Under the pieces are notes generated by a model. The model worked only from the letters and a program-made list of their open reading frames with translations, was not told the DNA's origin and did not search any database. A DNA stretch of 22,659 nucleotides from a virus: positions 1 through 22,659 of the IMG/VR virus record IMGVR_UViG_3300020580_000577. One strand, written 5' to 3'. Within the stretch, counting starts at the first letter, position 1; each line of letters starts with the position of its first letter. Shown one piece after another: positions 4,701 through 15,160 of this stretch. The position numbers and the translations under genes were made by a program.

Positions 4701-7700
4701 CGGCCACGTTACCATTCACACCGCCATCAAAACTGTAGTTGATGAGGTTGGTGATCTTGCTTTGAACGCCCCAAGCCATGAGGCGGTTGGAATACTCAAT
4801 CACGCCAAGAGACGAACCCAGCTCAACCTGGTTGAAATTGTTGGCTCCCTGAATGTCAATTTCCGTGGCAGCCAAGAGGATGTCGTCTGTAAAGGCGAAT
4901 GTGGCGGTGGTCTGTGTGTTGTTCGGAATCACCGTTGAGCTGTAAGTGATTTGCTGGTTCGCGTTGAACGGCGAAACCGTCGTCACAGGCTCTGGGATGT
5001 AATAGAAGAATGCTCCGGGCACGCCCTGTTGACCCGCCTCGGTGAAGGCGATGACACGCGCCACAACGTTGCTAGGACCAACAGGAATTTGTCCGCAGAT
5101 GATTGCCTGTTCGTTGGCGGACAAATTGAACTGGATTGGAGGCGAGCATTGAGTGAGTAGTCCTGCCTCGGTCAAGAATAAACAGACAGCTTGGCGCGTA
5201 CCGCTTGCCAACCCTCCCTGTTGAAGGATCGTTCCCCCAGTGGAATTGGCTAGCAGCTTGGTTGTGTCGAATGTGAAGATCGTTCCGTTGATGACAGCGG
5301 TCGCGCCGAGGTCCGCGCCGGACGGAATGTTTTGTGCGATAACGGATACAGTGAATTGAGTGTCCGTAGCGGAGGTGACTTGCGCGTTGGTTACATTGAG
5401 TGGATTGTTGGAACTAGTGGTGCCGTTCGTGGCCCCGTTGACCGTGACAAGGCCGAATGCCGCGCCTCCTGGGGTCCCCGGGAAGTTTTCGTTGGTCCAG
5501 ACAACACCACCTGCGTCTGTGGTAGGGGTACCAACAGTCTGAGAAAAGTTCGGAATGCTACCGCTAGATGTTCCTGCGGTCGTGACCTGCTGTACGAATC
5601 CATGCTGGTCAATGATTTGGTCGCCCAGGACATAGTTGACGCCGGACTGCCAACCGATTGCCTGACCAGTCTGGGGCGTGTAGCTGTAGACCGCGACGTT
5701 GGCACCAACTATCGAGCCATTAAATGTGGCTGGCGGGCCGATGGCGGTGGTCGTGATGGACATCTGGCCGCCGTTTAGCTCATCCGTGATGTTCCAGCTT
5801 CCGTCGTATCCACCATCGCTTGCGCCTGCAATCGTGATGTTGTCGCCAGCACCCAAGAATGGAATCGGGTTGGCTACGGTCAATGTGCTGACTGTTGATT
5901 GGTAAGTTCCGAGTTGTGTTCCGCCTGCCGGGAAGTCCGCAGTCTTAGCATTCGTCTGAGCCTGCGTGGACACAGCGGTGAAGCAAGGAACGATTTCACT
6001 AGGCACGTCCCCGCTTCCAGCGGAGATTTGAGAGGTGTTTACGGCGGTGACCGTGTACGTCCCGCTGTAAGTAGCGCCAGTCCCCCAGACGCCACCATCT
6101 CCCGTACCGCCGCCAATTGGGTCCCACGTGAAGACAATAGTTCCGCCAACCTCCACACCCGGGAGCGATGCTCCAATGCTAGGGGTCGTGGTGTTGGGAA
6201 CCTTTCCCTCACCAAAGAATGTCATGGTCGTGCCCTGGACTGTGCTGTTGCCCAGAGCATTTCCAATCATCAAGCGGCGAACCTTTACAGGTGCGTGCTG
6301 AGTGATGCTGATGATTTCGTTGGCTGTACCAGTGAACGTGACGACTCCCGAGCCTGTCTCTGGTATACCAGCGGGGTTGTTGACGACTAGGTTCGTAGAC
6401 GTGCAACTAATCACGGTGAATATTCCGTTGTTCGGCGTGTTCGCCCACCCGGAAATATCTACTGTGGTGCCAACAGGAATCACGGGCGAGAATGTTCCGT
6501 TGTAGGTGGTGTCTCCCGGAGGAGAACCTCCTACATCAACAGATGTCAGGAAAGCGACCGAGCTGGCTTGGCCGATAGTCGGAGGCGCACCAGGACCAAC
6601 CTGTGATAGACGATTGAAATTCGTGCCATCGTACTGACGCGGCATATCCGTGCCAGCGATCAAGTTCGACAGGGCGATAAACTCGCGGTCGTCCACAGTT
6701 ACGGAGGTTGCGAAGGTTCCTGGCTCAATCAGGGTGTAGAAGGCTGTTAGGACACCAGGATTGTTGTAAACGTCTTCCTGCCAGAATGTTCCCGCATTAT
6801 CCAGGGCGAGGTTCAGCGTTGTACCGTCTGTCTCCTCAAATGTTTTGATGTAATTAAAATTCTGCGGCGGAGGCGTGACGAATACGCGCATCGCCACGCT
6901 GTAAATGTCAAACGTAGCAAGCACATTAGAACTAGCCTGAATAGAGAAATTCAGAACGTTGCTGTTGATGAAGGCTGGCGTGAGAGTTGTGCCACCAATC
7001 CCCCAATTGTCCGTAGGGTATCCGACCGTGACTACGCCATCGCCTGAAGGCAACTGGAAAGTGGTCACAGGAGGATTTGCAACTCCCCCTCCGGTCATCT
7101 GTACGGTTAGTTGGGTGCTGGCATCCTGCGAAGTCTGGTGTCCTCCTACGAGGAGTTCTATGCCCGTGACACCCACACCCGGTGGGATCGTGAATGGAAA
7201 GTTGGCTCCCTGGAGGAAATTGCTGAGAGTGTTGCCCGGAAGGCCGCCCAACCCGGAAATTTCGTACATCTCAATGGAGGGCAGACCCGTGATAGCGCCC
7301 GAGGTCCAATTGACGGTGACTGTGTTCGGTCCGGCGTTAATTCCTGTTGCCACAAGTACAATCTGCTGAATGCCGTCGAGAGGATCAAACAAGTTTGCTA
7401 GGTTGACGATTTGAGTGTAGTTGTTGCCGTTCGTGTCGCTGGCGGTCACGGTCCCAATTGGCTCGTCGTGACCAGGATGAAAGACTGATGGCCCATTGAT
7501 GAAAATGAGAATCGTGTTCTCAGCGGTGTTGGGTGACGTGAAGGATTTGGTGAAGGGGGGCGGTGACCCGGTACCGATCCCAATACTCAACCCAGAAGCA
7601 ACTTGTATCTGCTGAACAATCGCTGGCGTAACGTTAGCCTTCTGTCCGAAGAGAGCCAAGCTAGCAATCCAGTACGGGGGGGACGGGGGACCACCCTGTA

Positions 7701-8339: not shown

Positions 8340-9353
8340 CTACCCGATGCGACCACCACGATTGCGGCCATTGTTGCTGTCGTATGAGGCGCGGAAATAC
8401 TGAATGCCTTGCTTCTGGCGCACTGTGCGCTTGATGATTTCGCGGATGTACTTGTCCGCCTGAGCACCAACCAGAGGTGCTGTCTCGGGGTTGCGGCTCA
8501 TCACGTAGCGAAACGCGATCATGTAGCTAAGTGCGTTGTACGCTCCCGGTAGGTCGATGAGGATCGTCGTGAAGTCTGTGCCTGCGGTGATGTTTGCTTC
8601 GCGCTTCTGGTAGCGGAGACGAATGTCGCGCAGGGTTGTCGCGCCAAGGAAATAGATTGCGTTGCCGCGCCATTCCCACTGAGCAAAACTCGGAGTCTGA
8701 CTGCGAGACTGTAAGCCTTCCATCGGCTGTACCATCGGGACGAAAGGAAGGTTGCTCCCGGTCTGGCGCTCCCAAAGAAACTGAGGCGTCATCATGTCGG
8801 GGGGTAGCGTGAATGTCGGGTCAAACGTGTTGGTGACTAGCCCTGTGTCCGCTGTCGGGCCGTAGGGGGCATTTGTCAACGCAGCCGTGAAGCTGTTGCT
8901 AGAAACATTGATGACAGTGAGCGTCAGGCCATTGAGGAAAGTCGCCGAGGTGAGGCCAGAGAAAACCACAGGCATGTTCTGCTTCAACGCGAGCGTCGAG
9001 TTGGAACAGGTGACGGTGACTAGGTTGGAAGAAACCTGAACCTGTGAAATGTCGAATGTGTTTGTGTATCCGCCGTACCCATCAAACCCTAGAAAGGTTT
9101 GTACCGACGGGTCTGTAGGGTTGACAGGCTCTAGGCCGCTCCGAATGTAATTGTCCACAGTGAGGACCACGACCGCGTTGTTCTCTAGGCGATCCTGTAG
9201 TTCCTGTAGGCTGGAATTGATGTACGAGATTGTGAACGGGGCTGTGTCCGTGAGAATTTCACCCGCTCCCGCGTTGTAGGCGTCATTAGCAATGGCGCGG
9301 GCGTTGTCCATGATGTCTTCTAAAATCGCAAAAGCATTTGGTGTTGTGCTCAT
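8340..9353 (-). CDS. Head-to-tail connector/adaptor-like protein with inserted beta domain
   Basis: This 337-residue protein sits between the capsid region and the nozzle-like gene, where T7-like phages encode the tail adaptor (gp11). Residues 1-75 are helical (AILEDIMDNARAIANDAYN, SLQELQDRLENNA). Residues 180-255 carry LPPDMMTPQFLWERQTG, WEWRGNAIYFLGAT and DIRLRYQK, typical of phage connector-like proteins. The C-terminal helices (ALSYMIAFRYVMSR, YIREIIKRTVRQKQG) would face the portal. Residues about 104-172 are a separate beta module that resembles modules in the neighbouring nozzle-like protein. ATG at 9353 has AGGA 5 nt upstream and starts just after an intrinsic terminator, so its expression may be throttled. 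Connector function is inferred from context and general resemblance. Confidence 0.75.
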   Translation of the reverse strand: MSTTPNAFAILEDIMDNARAIANDAYNAGAGEILTDTAPFTISYINSSLQELQDRLENNAVVVLTVDNYIRSGLEPVNPTDPSVQTFLGFDGYGGYTNTFDISQVQVSSNLVTVTCSNSTLALKQNMPVVFSGLTSATFLNGLTLTVINVSSNSFTAALTNAPYGPTADTGLVTNTFDPTFTLPPDMMTPQFLWERQTGSNLPFVPMVQPMEGLQSRSQTPSFAQWEWRGNAIYFLGATTLRDIRLRYQKREANITAGTDFTTILIDLPGAYNALSYMIAFRYVMSRNPETAPLVGAQADKYIREIIKRTVRQKQGIQYFRASYDSNNGRNRGGRIG

Positions 9354-9423: not shown

Positions 9424-9816
9424 TTACTGCTTGAAGAAGTCAAACTTGCCGAATACGGCGCGGAACTGAATCGTGTCGTTCAGCACGGCGGTCGGAATGG
9501 TTCCGCCTCCGGCGAGTTCAATGTTGTTGGTGCCAAAAATCTTGAGCGTCTGTAGAGACTGGTTGTAGGTGTATTGATAACCGCTTCCAACCGCTGACCA
9601 GACCTGAACTTCAAACGGAGCTGCCAGAGTCTTGACAGGCTCAATCGCCCACGAGATGGGAAGACCCCCGGTCTGATATTCGTCCTGGGAAGCCGGGGAG
9701 CCGCTAACCTGCGATGAGACCGCGAAATTTCCGCGCAGAGTCTGAGTCTTTTGACAGAACTCCGAGCCCTCTTGAAACCCAAAGAGATTGATTTGAACTG
9801 CTGCTGTTTGTGCCAT
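9424..9816 (-). CDS. Small beta-rich virion protein (130 aa), possible capsid decoration or head protein
   Basis: The frame opens at 9837, but the strong Shine-Dalgarno GAGGAGG (9825-9831) sits inside that extension and 8 nt before the ATG at 9816, so the protein starts MAQTAAVQINLFGFQEG. It has 130 residues, beta-rich and without charged helices: LRGNFAVSSQ, LPISWAIEPVKTLAAPFEVQVW, YQYTYNQSLQTLKIF and DTIQFRAVFGKFDFF. Phage structural proteins with a 'YxYxYN..LQIF...DTIxFRAxF' pattern are familiar to me, but no function is established. The gene has its own candidate promoter and leader (9912-9924), the strongest Shine-Dalgarno in the window and its own terminator, all pointing to abundant expression, as expected for a decoration or other high-copy protein. 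That role is an inference. Confidence 0.75.
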   Translation of the reverse strand: MAQTAAVQINLFGFQEGSEFCQKTQTLRGNFAVSSQVSGSPASQDEYQTGGLPISWAIEPVKTLAAPFEVQVWSAVGSGYQYTYNQSLQTLKIFGTNNIELAGGGTIPTAVLNDTIQFRAVFGKFDFFKQ

Positions 9817-9824
9817 ATTTTTGT

Positions 9825-9831
9825 CCTCCTC
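9825..9831 (-). promoter_or_regulatory. Strong Shine-Dalgarno deciding the start at 9816
   Basis: Minus-strand GAGGAGG with 8-nt A-rich spacing to the ATG at 9816. The upstream in-frame ATG at 9837 has no comparable signal and would make this site coding. Confidence 0.8.
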
Positions 9832-9851
9832 GGACATTGCACCCAGGACGT

Positions 9852-9932: not shown

Positions 9933-9953
9933 ACGAAATGCGGAGACACAAAA

Positions 9954-10011
9954 GGCCTCAGTTAGCCCAACTCTGCCGTAAGGGGCAGGACCGTCTATGG
10001 GCACCGAGGCC
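9954..10011 (-). ncRNA. Extended hairpin with U-tract, possible terminator
   Basis: Three nested stems are seen: GGCCTC/GAGGCC (9954-9959 with 10006-10011), GCCCA/TGGGC (9965-9969 with 9998-10002) and CTGCC/GGCAG (9973-9977 with 9984-9988) around a 6-nt loop. On the minus strand the last arm is followed by TTTTGTG. This may end the transcript of the 260-residue gene or be part of the adjacent structured RNA. The internal loops make it weaker than the two other terminators. Confidence 0.45.
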
Positions 10012-10055
10012 GATTGCTCGCATCCATTAAGGAATTGTGAAAAACATCGCCGGGA

Positions 10056-10132
10056 GGTTAAGAAACGAACGGGGCCAGGATTGACGCCCGAAGGCGTTGG
10101 ACCTCTTGGGTCCAACCCCGTTGTTCTTAACC
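10056..10132 (-). ncRNA. Predicted 77-nt branched structured RNA element
   Basis: On the minus strand the outer stem GGTTAAGAA/TTCTTAACC (10124-10132 with 10056-10064, 9 bp) encloses AACGGGG/CCCCGTT (10116-10122 with 10068-10074, 7 bp). Inside lie two hairpins: GTTGGACC-CAAGA-GGTCCAAC (10109-10116 with 10096-10103) and ACGCC-TTCG-GGCGT (10093-10097 with 10084-10088). The second is a canonical cUUCGg tetraloop only when the minus strand is read, which matches the direction of transcription. The hairpins share about two bases, so one is slightly shortened. It begins about 17 nt after the stop of the 260-residue gene and does not fit a tRNA. No named RNA family is recognised. Confidence 0.55.
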
Positions 10133-10148
10133 CTTATCCCAGCGAAGA

Positions 10149-10931
10149 CTAAATTTTTGTGACAGGCTTGACCTGAGCCTGGGCTGCGTTGTTAGTAGCC
10201 TCGGCCTTCCTGCGAGCATCCTTGAGGCGGTTACTGAGACCACCCTTCATGACGCTGTGCCAAGGAGCGTCTACCTCATGACCAGCGGTAATGAAATAGT
10301 CCGCTGCCTCGTGATAAGGCTTTCCGCGTCCTGCTCCGAGCTGCTTTTGCCCTTCCGGGCCGCTGGCATAGAGTTCGTTGGCTTCCATGATGAGGCGGTT
10401 GTAATTCAATTCCAGACGATCAATCGCAGCCTCGACAGCATCAAGGTCAGGCTCCGAGTCCGGCGTTGCGAGGCGGACCCAGAAGATGCCCTTCTCGTAG
10501 TAGTTGTTGCCGATGTTAATTTCTGTGGCCGGGTTGGCGGCCTTGTAAGTCTTCCAGCTACCATTCGGGTCGTTGGAGTTGACGATGTCCTGAGCAAGGA
10601 ACTCTCCCTTTTGCGGGACGGTGAGGATTTCATCGTTGCCCACGATGGGCCTGTGGATGAGTTCGATGTCGGCAAGAACGAAAGGCTTCCCATAAAGCGC
10701 ATCTTCTTTACGAGCTTCAATACGGACTGTTCCATTGATCGCCCAAGGACGCTCTACCACGAGTTCGCGACGTGAGACGTTGAAAATACCCACGTAAAAT
10801 TCTGGCTTGCGATCCTTGTAAGGATTGCCCGTCATGATCAATTGCGACTCGCGATTCTTATCATTAGCGATAGACCGAATTACGGTCTGCGCTGCGGCTG
10901 AGTCTCTAAGCTGTGCTGTTGGTACTGGCAT
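10149..10931 (-). CDS. Unrecognised conserved-looking protein of the head gene cluster (260 aa)
   Basis: ATG at 10931 has ACACAGGAG ending about 9 nt upstream, with a second ACAGGAT just before it. The protein begins MPVPTAQLRDSAAAQTVIRS. Residues 30-100 appear beta-rich (PEFYVGIFNVSRRELVVERPW, NGTVRIEARKED). The middle holds INIGNNYYEKGIFWVRLATP. A long helix at 160-190 (LDAVEAAIDRLELNYNRLIMEANELY) precedes a basic C-terminus ending AQVKPVTKI. There is no signal peptide or membrane segment. It lies with the preceding 109- and 219-residue genes between capsid and connector, so a role in head completion or assembly is plausible, but nothing in the sequence fixes a function. Confidence 0.7.
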   Translation of the reverse strand: MPVPTAQLRDSAAAQTVIRSIANDKNRESQLIMTGNPYKDRKPEFYVGIFNVSRRELVVERPWAINGTVRIEARKEDALYGKPFVLADIELIHRPIVGNDEILTVPQKGEFLAQDIVNSNDPNGSWKTYKAANPATEINIGNNYYEKGIFWVRLATPDSEPDLDAVEAAIDRLELNYNRLIMEANELYASGPEGQKQLGAGRGKPYHEAADYFITAGHEVDAPWHSVMKGGLSNRLKDARRKAEATNNAAQAQVKPVTKI

Positions 10932-11634: not shown

Positions 11635-11964
11635 TTAGACAGGGAGCCGCATGTAAATTTGTTTGCGGTTGAGGATCAGGTGTTCAATGCGGTCCAGCGT
11701 CACGTCATTGGCGGCGTGTTCGCTGAATAGAACCGTGTCGCCCAGCTTGAGCCACGTTTCCTCAGCGGCGACCGCGATCACCTTGCCCTTGTTGGAGAGA
11801 GTGCCCACCATATCGTGGGCGTTCTTCTCAATCTCCGACGCGGAATCCACGTCCAAGCGTTTGACGAGAACCATTTCAGGTGCCATTTCGTATTGCGGAG
11901 TTGGTGCTGGCGCTACTGCGGCGGCTGACTCGACGAGTTCCGCCAAAGAAGATTTCTTAGACAT
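11635..11964 (-). CDS. GroES-like co-chaperonin family protein
   Basis: This 109-residue protein matches the Cpn10/GroES layout after a roughly 25-residue Ala/Pro-rich leader: MVLVKRL (first core strand), a 23-residue loop where GroES has its mobile loop, NKGKVIAVAAE (compare RGEVLAVGN), LKLGDTVLFSEHAAND (compare VKVGDIVIFNDGYG) and the closing strand LILNRKQIYMRL. The loop (DVDSASEIEKNAHDMVGTLS) lacks a perfect Ile-Val-Leu contact triplet; MVGTL or EIE could replace it. The Gly after IAV is Ala. T4 gp31 is the precedent for a phage GroES replacement used in capsid folding. The gene lies directly after the capsid gene and its terminator. Upstream, ACACAGGAT abuts the ATG itself, too close to act; GAAGG 10 nt upstream may serve. 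Fold fairly likely, GroEL partnership inferred. Confidence 0.65.
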   Translation of the reverse strand: MSKKSSLAELVESAAAVAPAPTPQYEMAPEMVLVKRLDVDSASEIEKNAHDMVGTLSNKGKVIAVAAEETWLKLGDTVLFSEHAANDVTLDRIEHLILNRKQIYMRLPV

Positions 11965-12012: not shown

Positions 12013-12045
12013 AAAACGAAAAAGACCGGGAGGTTAGTCCCGGTC
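12013..12045 (-). terminator. Strong intrinsic terminator after the capsid gene
   Basis: On the minus strand GACCGGGA (12038-12045) pairs perfectly with TCCCGGTC (12024-12031) around a 6-nt loop, followed at once by TTTTT and, after CG, TTTT (12013-12023). It lies 26 nt beyond the capsid stop codon and 49 nt or more before the GroES-like start. The placement matches the T-phi terminator after T7 gene 10. Confidence 0.9.
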
Positions 12046-12070
12046 CTTAGCAAGTCAGCGTTGTCGCTGG

Positions 12071-13658: not shown

Positions 13659-13700
13659 CAGATTTTTCTTGCGCGGAAATTAGCGAGACCGAAAATTGGC

Positions 13701-13730
13701 GCTCCCCACCCGCTTGCGCGAATGAGGAGC
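13701..13730 (-). ncRNA. Hairpin with GCAA tetraloop downstream of the scaffold gene
   Basis: Outer GCTCC/GGAGC (13701-13705 with 13726-13730) encloses, on the minus strand, CGC-GCAA-GCG (13711-13720), extendable by U-G pairs. The GNRA loop exists only on the transcribed strand. No U-tract follows, so it is not a standard terminator; it could protect or process the mRNA between scaffold and capsid genes. Confidence 0.35.
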
Positions 13731-13780
13731 AGATGGGCAGTTTAATGTCATGCCCAGGACTCAGTAACTTGAGTGCGGAA

Positions 13781-15160
13781 TTAGTTTTGTTTGGACCAGT
13801 CCCACTTGACGCGGCGCTTTGAACCCTTGAGAACGGCCTCCCCGGCCATATACATCATTTCCGTAGTGGGGCCTCCGTCCTTCTCCCAAAATATATCGTC
13901 GTATTTTGGCTTGGCTGTTAGGTTCACAGTTCCTGTATTGGTGGCTCCTGGTGCTGGCTTGGTAGAGTTGGGGATATTTCCGAACCCACGGCGATTCCAA
14001 ATCTTCTTTGCGGATTCCTGGACAATCTTTGAGACATTCTGCTGGACGAAGTTAGCGATCTTCTGCTGATTTCCCTCGTTCACTAGGGTGCGCAGTTGTG
14101 TCTGATACTTCTTGTTGGACTCAAGCTGCCGCGTGATGAAACTAAACACGCCTTCGTGCAGGTCGGCCTTCTGCTCCTTGGTGATCTTGGGAAACTGCTT
14201 GTAGTAAGTGCTCAGCGATTTGTCTACCAGGCCATCCATAGCGGTGACGACCTTGGTCTGCATCTCTGTGTAGAAGGCATCGCGTTCTTTCTTGGTGATT
14301 TGCTGTTCCTTCTGTTGAAGAGCCTTCTCACGGTCACTCAGAGGACGCTCAGCGCCCTTCTCGGCAATCTGTTTCAAATTCTCCGTAGCTCCATAGACCT
14401 TTTGTAGTGCCTTGAATGCCTGGGTCAATTCTGCGACGCCCTGCGTGTTGCCGGACTGCTTGAATGACTGGAGGACCTCGTAAAGCACGTTGCCAGCTTC
14501 CATCACACCAGCGGTGATGCCGGACGTTTCCAGCGTGTTCACAAAAATTGGTGCGAGTGCGGCGTTGTACGCCTCGGGCATATTAGAGAGTTCCGCAAGA
14601 TAAGGAATTGCGCCTCCCCCGAATCCCTCCGGGTCGTCCTTCGCCAACTGCGCATAGAATTTGGGGTCGGCCTTGGAGAAGGACTCCATCTCGCTGGCGA
14701 ATTGCTGTGCACGACCGGAAATTTCCTCAATACCCTCGGCTCCGCCGTAGGTGTCAAAGAGTTCTTTCGCGGCTACCGCGTCGGCTGAGGTTGGGAATGC
14801 TTGCTGATATTTTTGATAATCGAAGTGCTGCTTGCGGAAGACATCTGCGGCCTTGGGGTCGGCTGCTTTGAGCTTGTCATAGACAGACTTGAAATTTGTC
14901 TTGGTATCAGTCGGCGCTGCCTTAGGAATTGGGTTTCCGTCGGCGTCTAACTTTTGCTCGCCAGTGGCTTCATCAATTTCAAACTCTTGAGCGTCCGCTC
15001 CGCCAGTGGATTCTTCTCCACCAACTACGGGGTCGGCCTCTCCACCAGAGCCGCCATCATCTCCGCCGGAATAGCTTCCACCTGAATCTCCGCCAGAGTC
15101 GCCCGCTCCTACTCCTGGGTCTACTGCCAAAGCTCCGCCAACTGCGTCTTCCATTGACAT
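13781..15160 (-). CDS. Capsid scaffolding (assembly) protein
   Basis: This 459-residue protein directly precedes the capsid gene, the usual scaffold position. Residues 1-60 are acidic and Gly/Ser/Asp-rich (GDSGGDSGGSYSGGDDGG), probably disordered. Residues 85-380 are strongly helical: a region with YQKYQQAFPTS, then the coiled coil REKALQQKEQQITKKERDAFYTEMQ, and later FITRQLESNKKYQTQLRTL. The C-terminus is basic and aromatic (KGSKRRVKWDWSKQN), consistent with the capsid-binding tail of scaffolds such as P22 gp8. The N-terminal acidic tract resembles that of T7-like gp9. ATG at 15160 has ACACAGGAGA 7-8 nt upstream, the last of several ACAGG repeats. The scaffold would be lost from mature particles. 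No protease motif is seen. Confidence 0.8.
   Translation of the reverse strand: MSMEDAVGGALAVDPGVGAGDSGGDSGGSYSGGDDGGSGGEADPVVGGEESTGGADAQEFEIDEATGEQKLDADGNPIPKAAPTDTKTNFKSVYDKLKAADPKAADVFRKQHFDYQKYQQAFPTSADAVAAKELFDTYGGAEGIEEISGRAQQFASEMESFSKADPKFYAQLAKDDPEGFGGGAIPYLAELSNMPEAYNAALAPIFVNTLETSGITAGVMEAGNVLYEVLQSFKQSGNTQGVAELTQAFKALQKVYGATENLKQIAEKGAERPLSDREKALQQKEQQITKKERDAFYTEMQTKVVTAMDGLVDKSLSTYYKQFPKITKEQKADLHEGVFSFITRQLESNKKYQTQLRTLVNEGNQQKIANFVQQNVSKIVQESAKKIWNRRGFGNIPNSTKPAPGATNTGTVNLTAKPKYDDIFWEKDGGPTTEMMYMAGEAVLKGSKRRVKWDWSKQN

Follow-up and report, generated by a model that had tools for sequence, protein, structure and literature searches.

A structured element behind g260

In the window analyzed here, i.e., the whole 22,659-base IMG/VR virus record IMGVR_UViG_3300020580_000577, from a soil phage, every large gene lies on the minus strand. 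One of them was recognized as a terminase through PHROG and Pfam matches, and portal-like, capsid-like, and tail-like genes were named on the basis of gene order and size; no tRNA or tmRNA was found in the window with ARAGORN. The element under study lies downstream of g260 (260 amino acids; positions 10149 to 10931, minus strand) and is followed by g137 (9424 to 9837, minus strand) and then g337 (8340 to 9353, minus strand), the last weakly matching a virion structural protein in PHROG. In most relatives, g337 directly follows the hairpin, and g137, which sits between the two in the window, is missing from this site. Relatives of g337 with 31 to 33% identity were found in Acidobacteria assemblies, and the window phage may, judging from these matches, infect that phylum. 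The g260/g337 gap of these relatives within Acidobacteria assemblies holds a different, very strong G+C-rich hairpin (L125, positions 5915 to 5985; L126; L127; L128; L089, positions 4918 to 5000).

Several other features of the same strand were recorded. A GroES-like (Cpn10) gene (11635 to 11964), which most relatives have too, lies directly behind the capsid-like gene, and a terminator scan listed an intrinsic-terminator-like hairpin with a U-rich tail (12021 to 12048) right after the capsid-like gene. The second most structured stretch of the record (13691 to 13793) follows the gene that lies upstream of the capsid-like one. Finally, another long hairpin, GGCCUCGGUGCCC...GGGCUAACUGAGGCC, followed by UUUUGU, lies between the element and g137 (9940 to 10020).

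The original prediction placed a structured RNA at positions 10056 to 10132. This was borne out: on the minus strand, the stretch folds at −39.1 kcal/mol (z −5.2), far below its shuffled controls, none of 200 shuffles being as good. Its fold has two stems, one outer and one inner and G+C-rich, and two hairpins, one of 6 bp and the cUUCGg hairpin of 5 bp; these four arms are close to those claimed, with slightly different pair counts. As predicted, the UUCG tetraloop forms only on the transcribed strand, the minus strand, where all large genes lie. The predicted extent was too short, since a further 9-bp helix and the basal CUUC/GAUG foot fall outside it. The full element (10045 to 10147, minus strand; 103 nt) starts one base past the TAG stop codon of g260 and folds at −56.0 kcal/mol (z −6.8). 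When 1,736 windows of 103 nt on both strands were scanned, the best z was −5.1; scored in the same way, the element reached −7.9, and no other 103-nt stretch scanned on either strand of the record was as structured.

From its 5′ end, the element comprises the foot CUUC (10144 to 10147) and the 5′ arm of the basal helix P1 (10137 to 10145, pairing with 10047 to 10055), followed by the 5′ arm of a long upper helix (10115 to 10132, pairing with 10056 to 10075), an accessory 6-bp hairpin (10098 to 10114), an accessory 5-bp cUUCGg hairpin (10084 to 10097), and the loop motif UCCUGG (10075 to 10080); the 3′ arms of the upper helix and P1 then lead to the 3′ foot GAUG (10045 to 10048). Both accessory hairpins are seen in the fold of the window copy and are missing from relatives, so that the cUUCGg hairpin, which the original prediction had treated as part of the core, is an insert, like its 6-bp neighbor. 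What is conserved is the outer stem with its CUUC/GAUG foot, omitted from that prediction, and the UCCUG loop.

The same hairpin in related phages

Relatives were collected from IMG/VR through the capsid-like protein (58 to 67% down to 28% identity), and alignments of the portal protein, g337, and g260 supplied more. Neither g260 nor the terminase, each used as a single-protein query, retrieved any relative from viral contigs, and no named phage was matched by the portal or capsid queries. The same type of hairpin occurs in the g260/g337 gap of 16 other IMG/VR phage lineages, whose proteins are often only 30 to 60% identical. In L003, L004, L005, L006/7, L008, L021/22/26, and L056, this gap is essentially taken up by a single hairpin that shares the foot and loop, and a variant, the 3′ arm of which bears a side helix in several cases, fills the gap in L070 to L073, L112, L133, L137, and L143. 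In some more distant relatives, g260 and g337 abut, with no gap and no hairpin. Each record has one strong copy, and no convincing extra copies were found elsewhere in the records. Searches of Acidobacteriota chromosomes, run without a positive control, yielded no copy in 149 genomes with model R1 and one weak match, without CTGAGTCC, with model R2. A scan for any CCTG-loop hairpin was dropped as too unspecific, though the L027 member surfaced in it.

Two further kinds of element were seen in the relatives. Just before the capsid-like gene, several of L002, L003, L004, L005, L007, and L008 have a hairpin of the form AAUGAG-stem-loop-CUCAUG (or close to it), the 3′ arm of which holds the start codon of that gene; the window has no clear copy. 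Group I introns were matched by Rfam in L116 (1600 to 1817) and L117 (278 to 491).

The members with the layout of the window copy (type I) start with CUU(C), continue over about 23 to 28 bp to a loop with (U)CCUG, and end with (G)AUG. CUU of the 5′ foot (invariant in 28 of 28 members of both forms described below), the last G of the 3′ foot (also invariant), and CUG of the loop (invariant in the loop alignment) are invariant or almost so across the family; some relatives have GUCG, CAUG, or GGGG instead of GAUG. Most members have a U·U mismatch above the basal C-G pair, topped by a U-A pair in 23 of 28. Where measurable, the 5′ arm from CUU to CUG spans 32 to 36 nt and the main helix encloses the loop with 23 to 28 pairs; automatic reading of the loop position failed for L004 and L008, where part of the loop is paired in the best fold. 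The two exceptions in arm length, L003 (53 nt) and the window (69 nt), carry hairpins in that arm, and the window arm shortens to 38 nt once its two side hairpins (31 nt) are removed. Extra helices are accommodated as side branches, and the window copy otherwise has everything that marks the family: the CUU foot, a helix of about 25 bp, the CUG loop, an AUG-like foot, and the g260/g337 junction.

The element is tied to the end of a gene, a long-frame stop codon lying 1 to 6 nt upstream of the hairpin in 13 of 17 type I members. We considered whether the AUG of the GAUG foot is a start codon and rejected this, as different members have different frames behind it, and in some of them the foot reads GUCG or GGGG. 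A strong G+C-rich hairpin after a stop codon, followed in the window copy directly by UUUUUC, could also be an intrinsic or partial transcription terminator placed after the head genes. However, in 11 of 17 type I members the next 8 bases contain 0 to 2 T's, the terminator scan did not list the element, and the kept letters of loop and foot would be needless for such a role. A stem followed by a U-rich tract was recognized in few members (the window copy passes by eye), and because no U tract is conserved, the family is not one of intrinsic terminators; we regard the terminator reading as quite improbable.

The distance to the next gene bears on another possibility, namely, that the hairpin is an operator bound, without cutting, by a dedicated protein of phage or host that governs how the neighboring genes are translated or used. 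Most relatives have the start of g337 close behind the hairpin, the letters of loop and foot stay the same as those of the stem change, as is typical of protein sites, and in two records (L152 and L153) the sister form described below occurs in tandem copies. Against this, the next start codon may be near or hundreds of bases off (304 nt in L070), whole genes have been inserted in the window, L027, and L070, and the window hairpin overlaps neither a start codon nor a ribosome site. This freedom of distance weakens the operator reading, which we consider rather unlikely. In L027, an inserted gene precedes the hairpin and another follows it; HNH-like genes, identified by eye, are inserted beside the hairpin, on either side, in L027 (10036 to 10588) and L149 (2373 to 3062).

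Covariation and a sister form

Since whole-element MAFFT alignments misplace the loop, the P1 arms were excised and manually joined, with CUU and AUG as anchors. Among 14 type I members, seven of the nine P1 pairs have changed on both sides, with 27 compensated cells, the rows being mutually related and the cells therefore not independent events; the covariation score was 0.663, compared with 0.200 for shuffled alignments and at most 0.184 for slid pairings. Over 28 members of both forms, 97.3% of the cells are paired, a percentage biased upward by the manual anchoring and by the fact that members were found partly via foot pairing (the window and L003 to L008 were found through gene position alone), 68 cells are compensated, and the score rises to 0.863 versus 0.213. 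The stems thus change with compensation in homologues, and the folding energy lies well below that of shuffles, where the original prediction had named uncompensated changes and an energy no better than that of shuffled sequence as observations that would speak against it.

These alignments also bear on the strand and on the nature of the molecule. As DNA, the hairpin folds as well (z −7.4), as would be expected of a recombination, replication, or packaging site acting as a cruciform or single-strand hairpin. However, P1 over both forms holds 14 G·U pairs on the gene strand versus one A·C, which indicates that selection acts on the gene-strand RNA, and the position of the element is tied to a stop codon; a DNA element is, in our judgment, very improbable. 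The difference in whole-element folding energy between the strands was not significant (P = 0.11).

In more distant relatives, the same g260/g337 gap is occupied by a sister hairpin with the loop CUGAGUCC and a foot that is mostly CUUG/CAUG. It occurs twice in tandem in L152 (2760 to 2831 and 2849 to 2920) and L153 (2774 to 2846 and 2863 to 2935). A covariance model of this form matched 13 loci at E values below 1e-12, mainly model members or nearly identical records. In L114, L115, and L119, an extra hairpin sits upstream of the CUGAGUCC loop, at a distance of about 65 nt. A kissing interaction with a neighboring loop was rejected as a general feature, given that an ACUCAG hairpin complementary to CUGAGU is found in these three records only; a CUCAG/CUGAG kissing pair is possible in that subgroup alone.

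The unpaired letters that are conserved, most of all CUGAGUCC of the sister form, might recall a self-cleaving ribozyme or a riboswitch. Such a function is scarcely credible: several type I members are near-unbroken hairpins (26 pairs, almost uninterrupted, in L021), no catalytic core or ligand pocket is evident, and no ribozyme or riboswitch in Rfam was matched. More generally, the original prediction, which recognized no known RNA here, was borne out against Rfam. Rfam 15 gave no gathering-score match for the element and no meaningful one in a search up to an E value of 10, the best matches (E values of 0.22 and 0.38) being at chance level and far below gathering; the sister form likewise had no Rfam match, and no description of the element was found in the literature searched. 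Structured RNAs from viral contigs have been compiled in large catalogues, and an unnamed listing of the element in one of them is possible. In summary, this is a real, apparently unnamed RNA element and apparently a new RNA family among intercistronic phage hairpins, with unusual conservation at both ends.

A proposed measured hairpin in the structural-gene transcript

From the constant stem length and the signals at both ends, we infer that something measures the hairpin. The reading that we favor, albeit with less than even confidence, is that of an intercistronic hairpin of the structural-gene transcript that is measured by a protein for mRNA cutting or protection. The protein that would measure and bind the hairpin is most probably a double-strand nuclease of the RNase III type or, alternatively, one that blocks 3′ exonucleases; the polycistronic mRNA would then be cut, or protected, at the boundary of the head genes and the following genes. 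A ribosome ending g260 would cover the foot, and the step could thereby be coupled to translation. The position behind the stop codon, the free distance to the next start, the constant 5′ arm, the covariation in P1, its excess of G·U over A·C, the 23 to 28 enclosing pairs, and the single strong copy per record all support this reading, and an RNase III-type cut or a protected 3′ end suits the position better than the alternatives do. The absence of the gap from some relatives means that the function would be dispensable or has moved there. Among the roles listed in the original prediction, 3′ protection, processing, and regulation still stand as candidates, an elaborate terminator is unlikely for the family, and no tie to packaging was found.

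RNase III cuts double-helical mRNA structures and can set mRNA half-life, and its T7 substrate R1.1 is a hairpin of about 60 nt (PMC4858673). Type I members offer the long intramolecular mRNA duplex looked for in such sites (23 to 28 pairs), and they share with phage sites of the R1.1 type the intercistronic position and a hairpin of about 60 to 100 nt with a long duplex. Unlike those sites, the element keeps its loop (CUG), its foot (CUU/AUG), and a near-constant length, and the side helices that break the duplex in some members count against RNase III. RNase III is not known to require a fixed apical loop sequence, and the kept CUG loop therefore suggests that the reader is something other than plain RNase III. 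A measured stem with basal and apical sequence signals is found in eukaryotic pri-miRNAs and loop-specific RNase III substrates (Drosha and Rnt1p). The likeness is one of logic only, the element being from a bacterial phage and its letters unrelated. With 3′-end stabilizing hairpins and intrinsic terminators, it shares a strong hairpin right after a stop codon, but it has a kept loop and foot and no kept U tract.

The last alternative is an RNA acting on the transcribing polymerase, e.g., in processive antitermination through the late operon as by HK022 put. Like put RNA, which is about 70 nt long (PMC9378689), the element is a phage cis RNA of similar size with kept letters, and a terminator-like site (the one at 12021 to 12048) lies earlier in the same gene block. 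However, put RNA consists of two stem-loops near early promoters (PMC9378689), whereas the element is one long main hairpin in the middle of the structural-gene operon, behind rather than before the terminator-like site, which makes this mode of action distinctly unlikely.

Returning to the protein-measured hairpin, a broader claim can be put forward as a tentative possibility: a new class of phage RNA signal, in which a hairpin of measured length would be read at its foot (CUU/AUG with the U·U mismatch) and its loop (CUG) by a dedicated reader protein. Such a signal would exist in two or more sister forms within a large group of uncultivated phages. The family is compact and testable, with clear invariant and covarying positions, and the phages that carry it have their nearest cellular matches in Acidobacteria, abundant but little-studied soil bacteria. 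Its constant length and the signals at both ends suggest a specific reader, which, if found, would reveal loop-specific RNase III-like processing in bacteria or a new way of splitting the expression of head genes from that of later genes.
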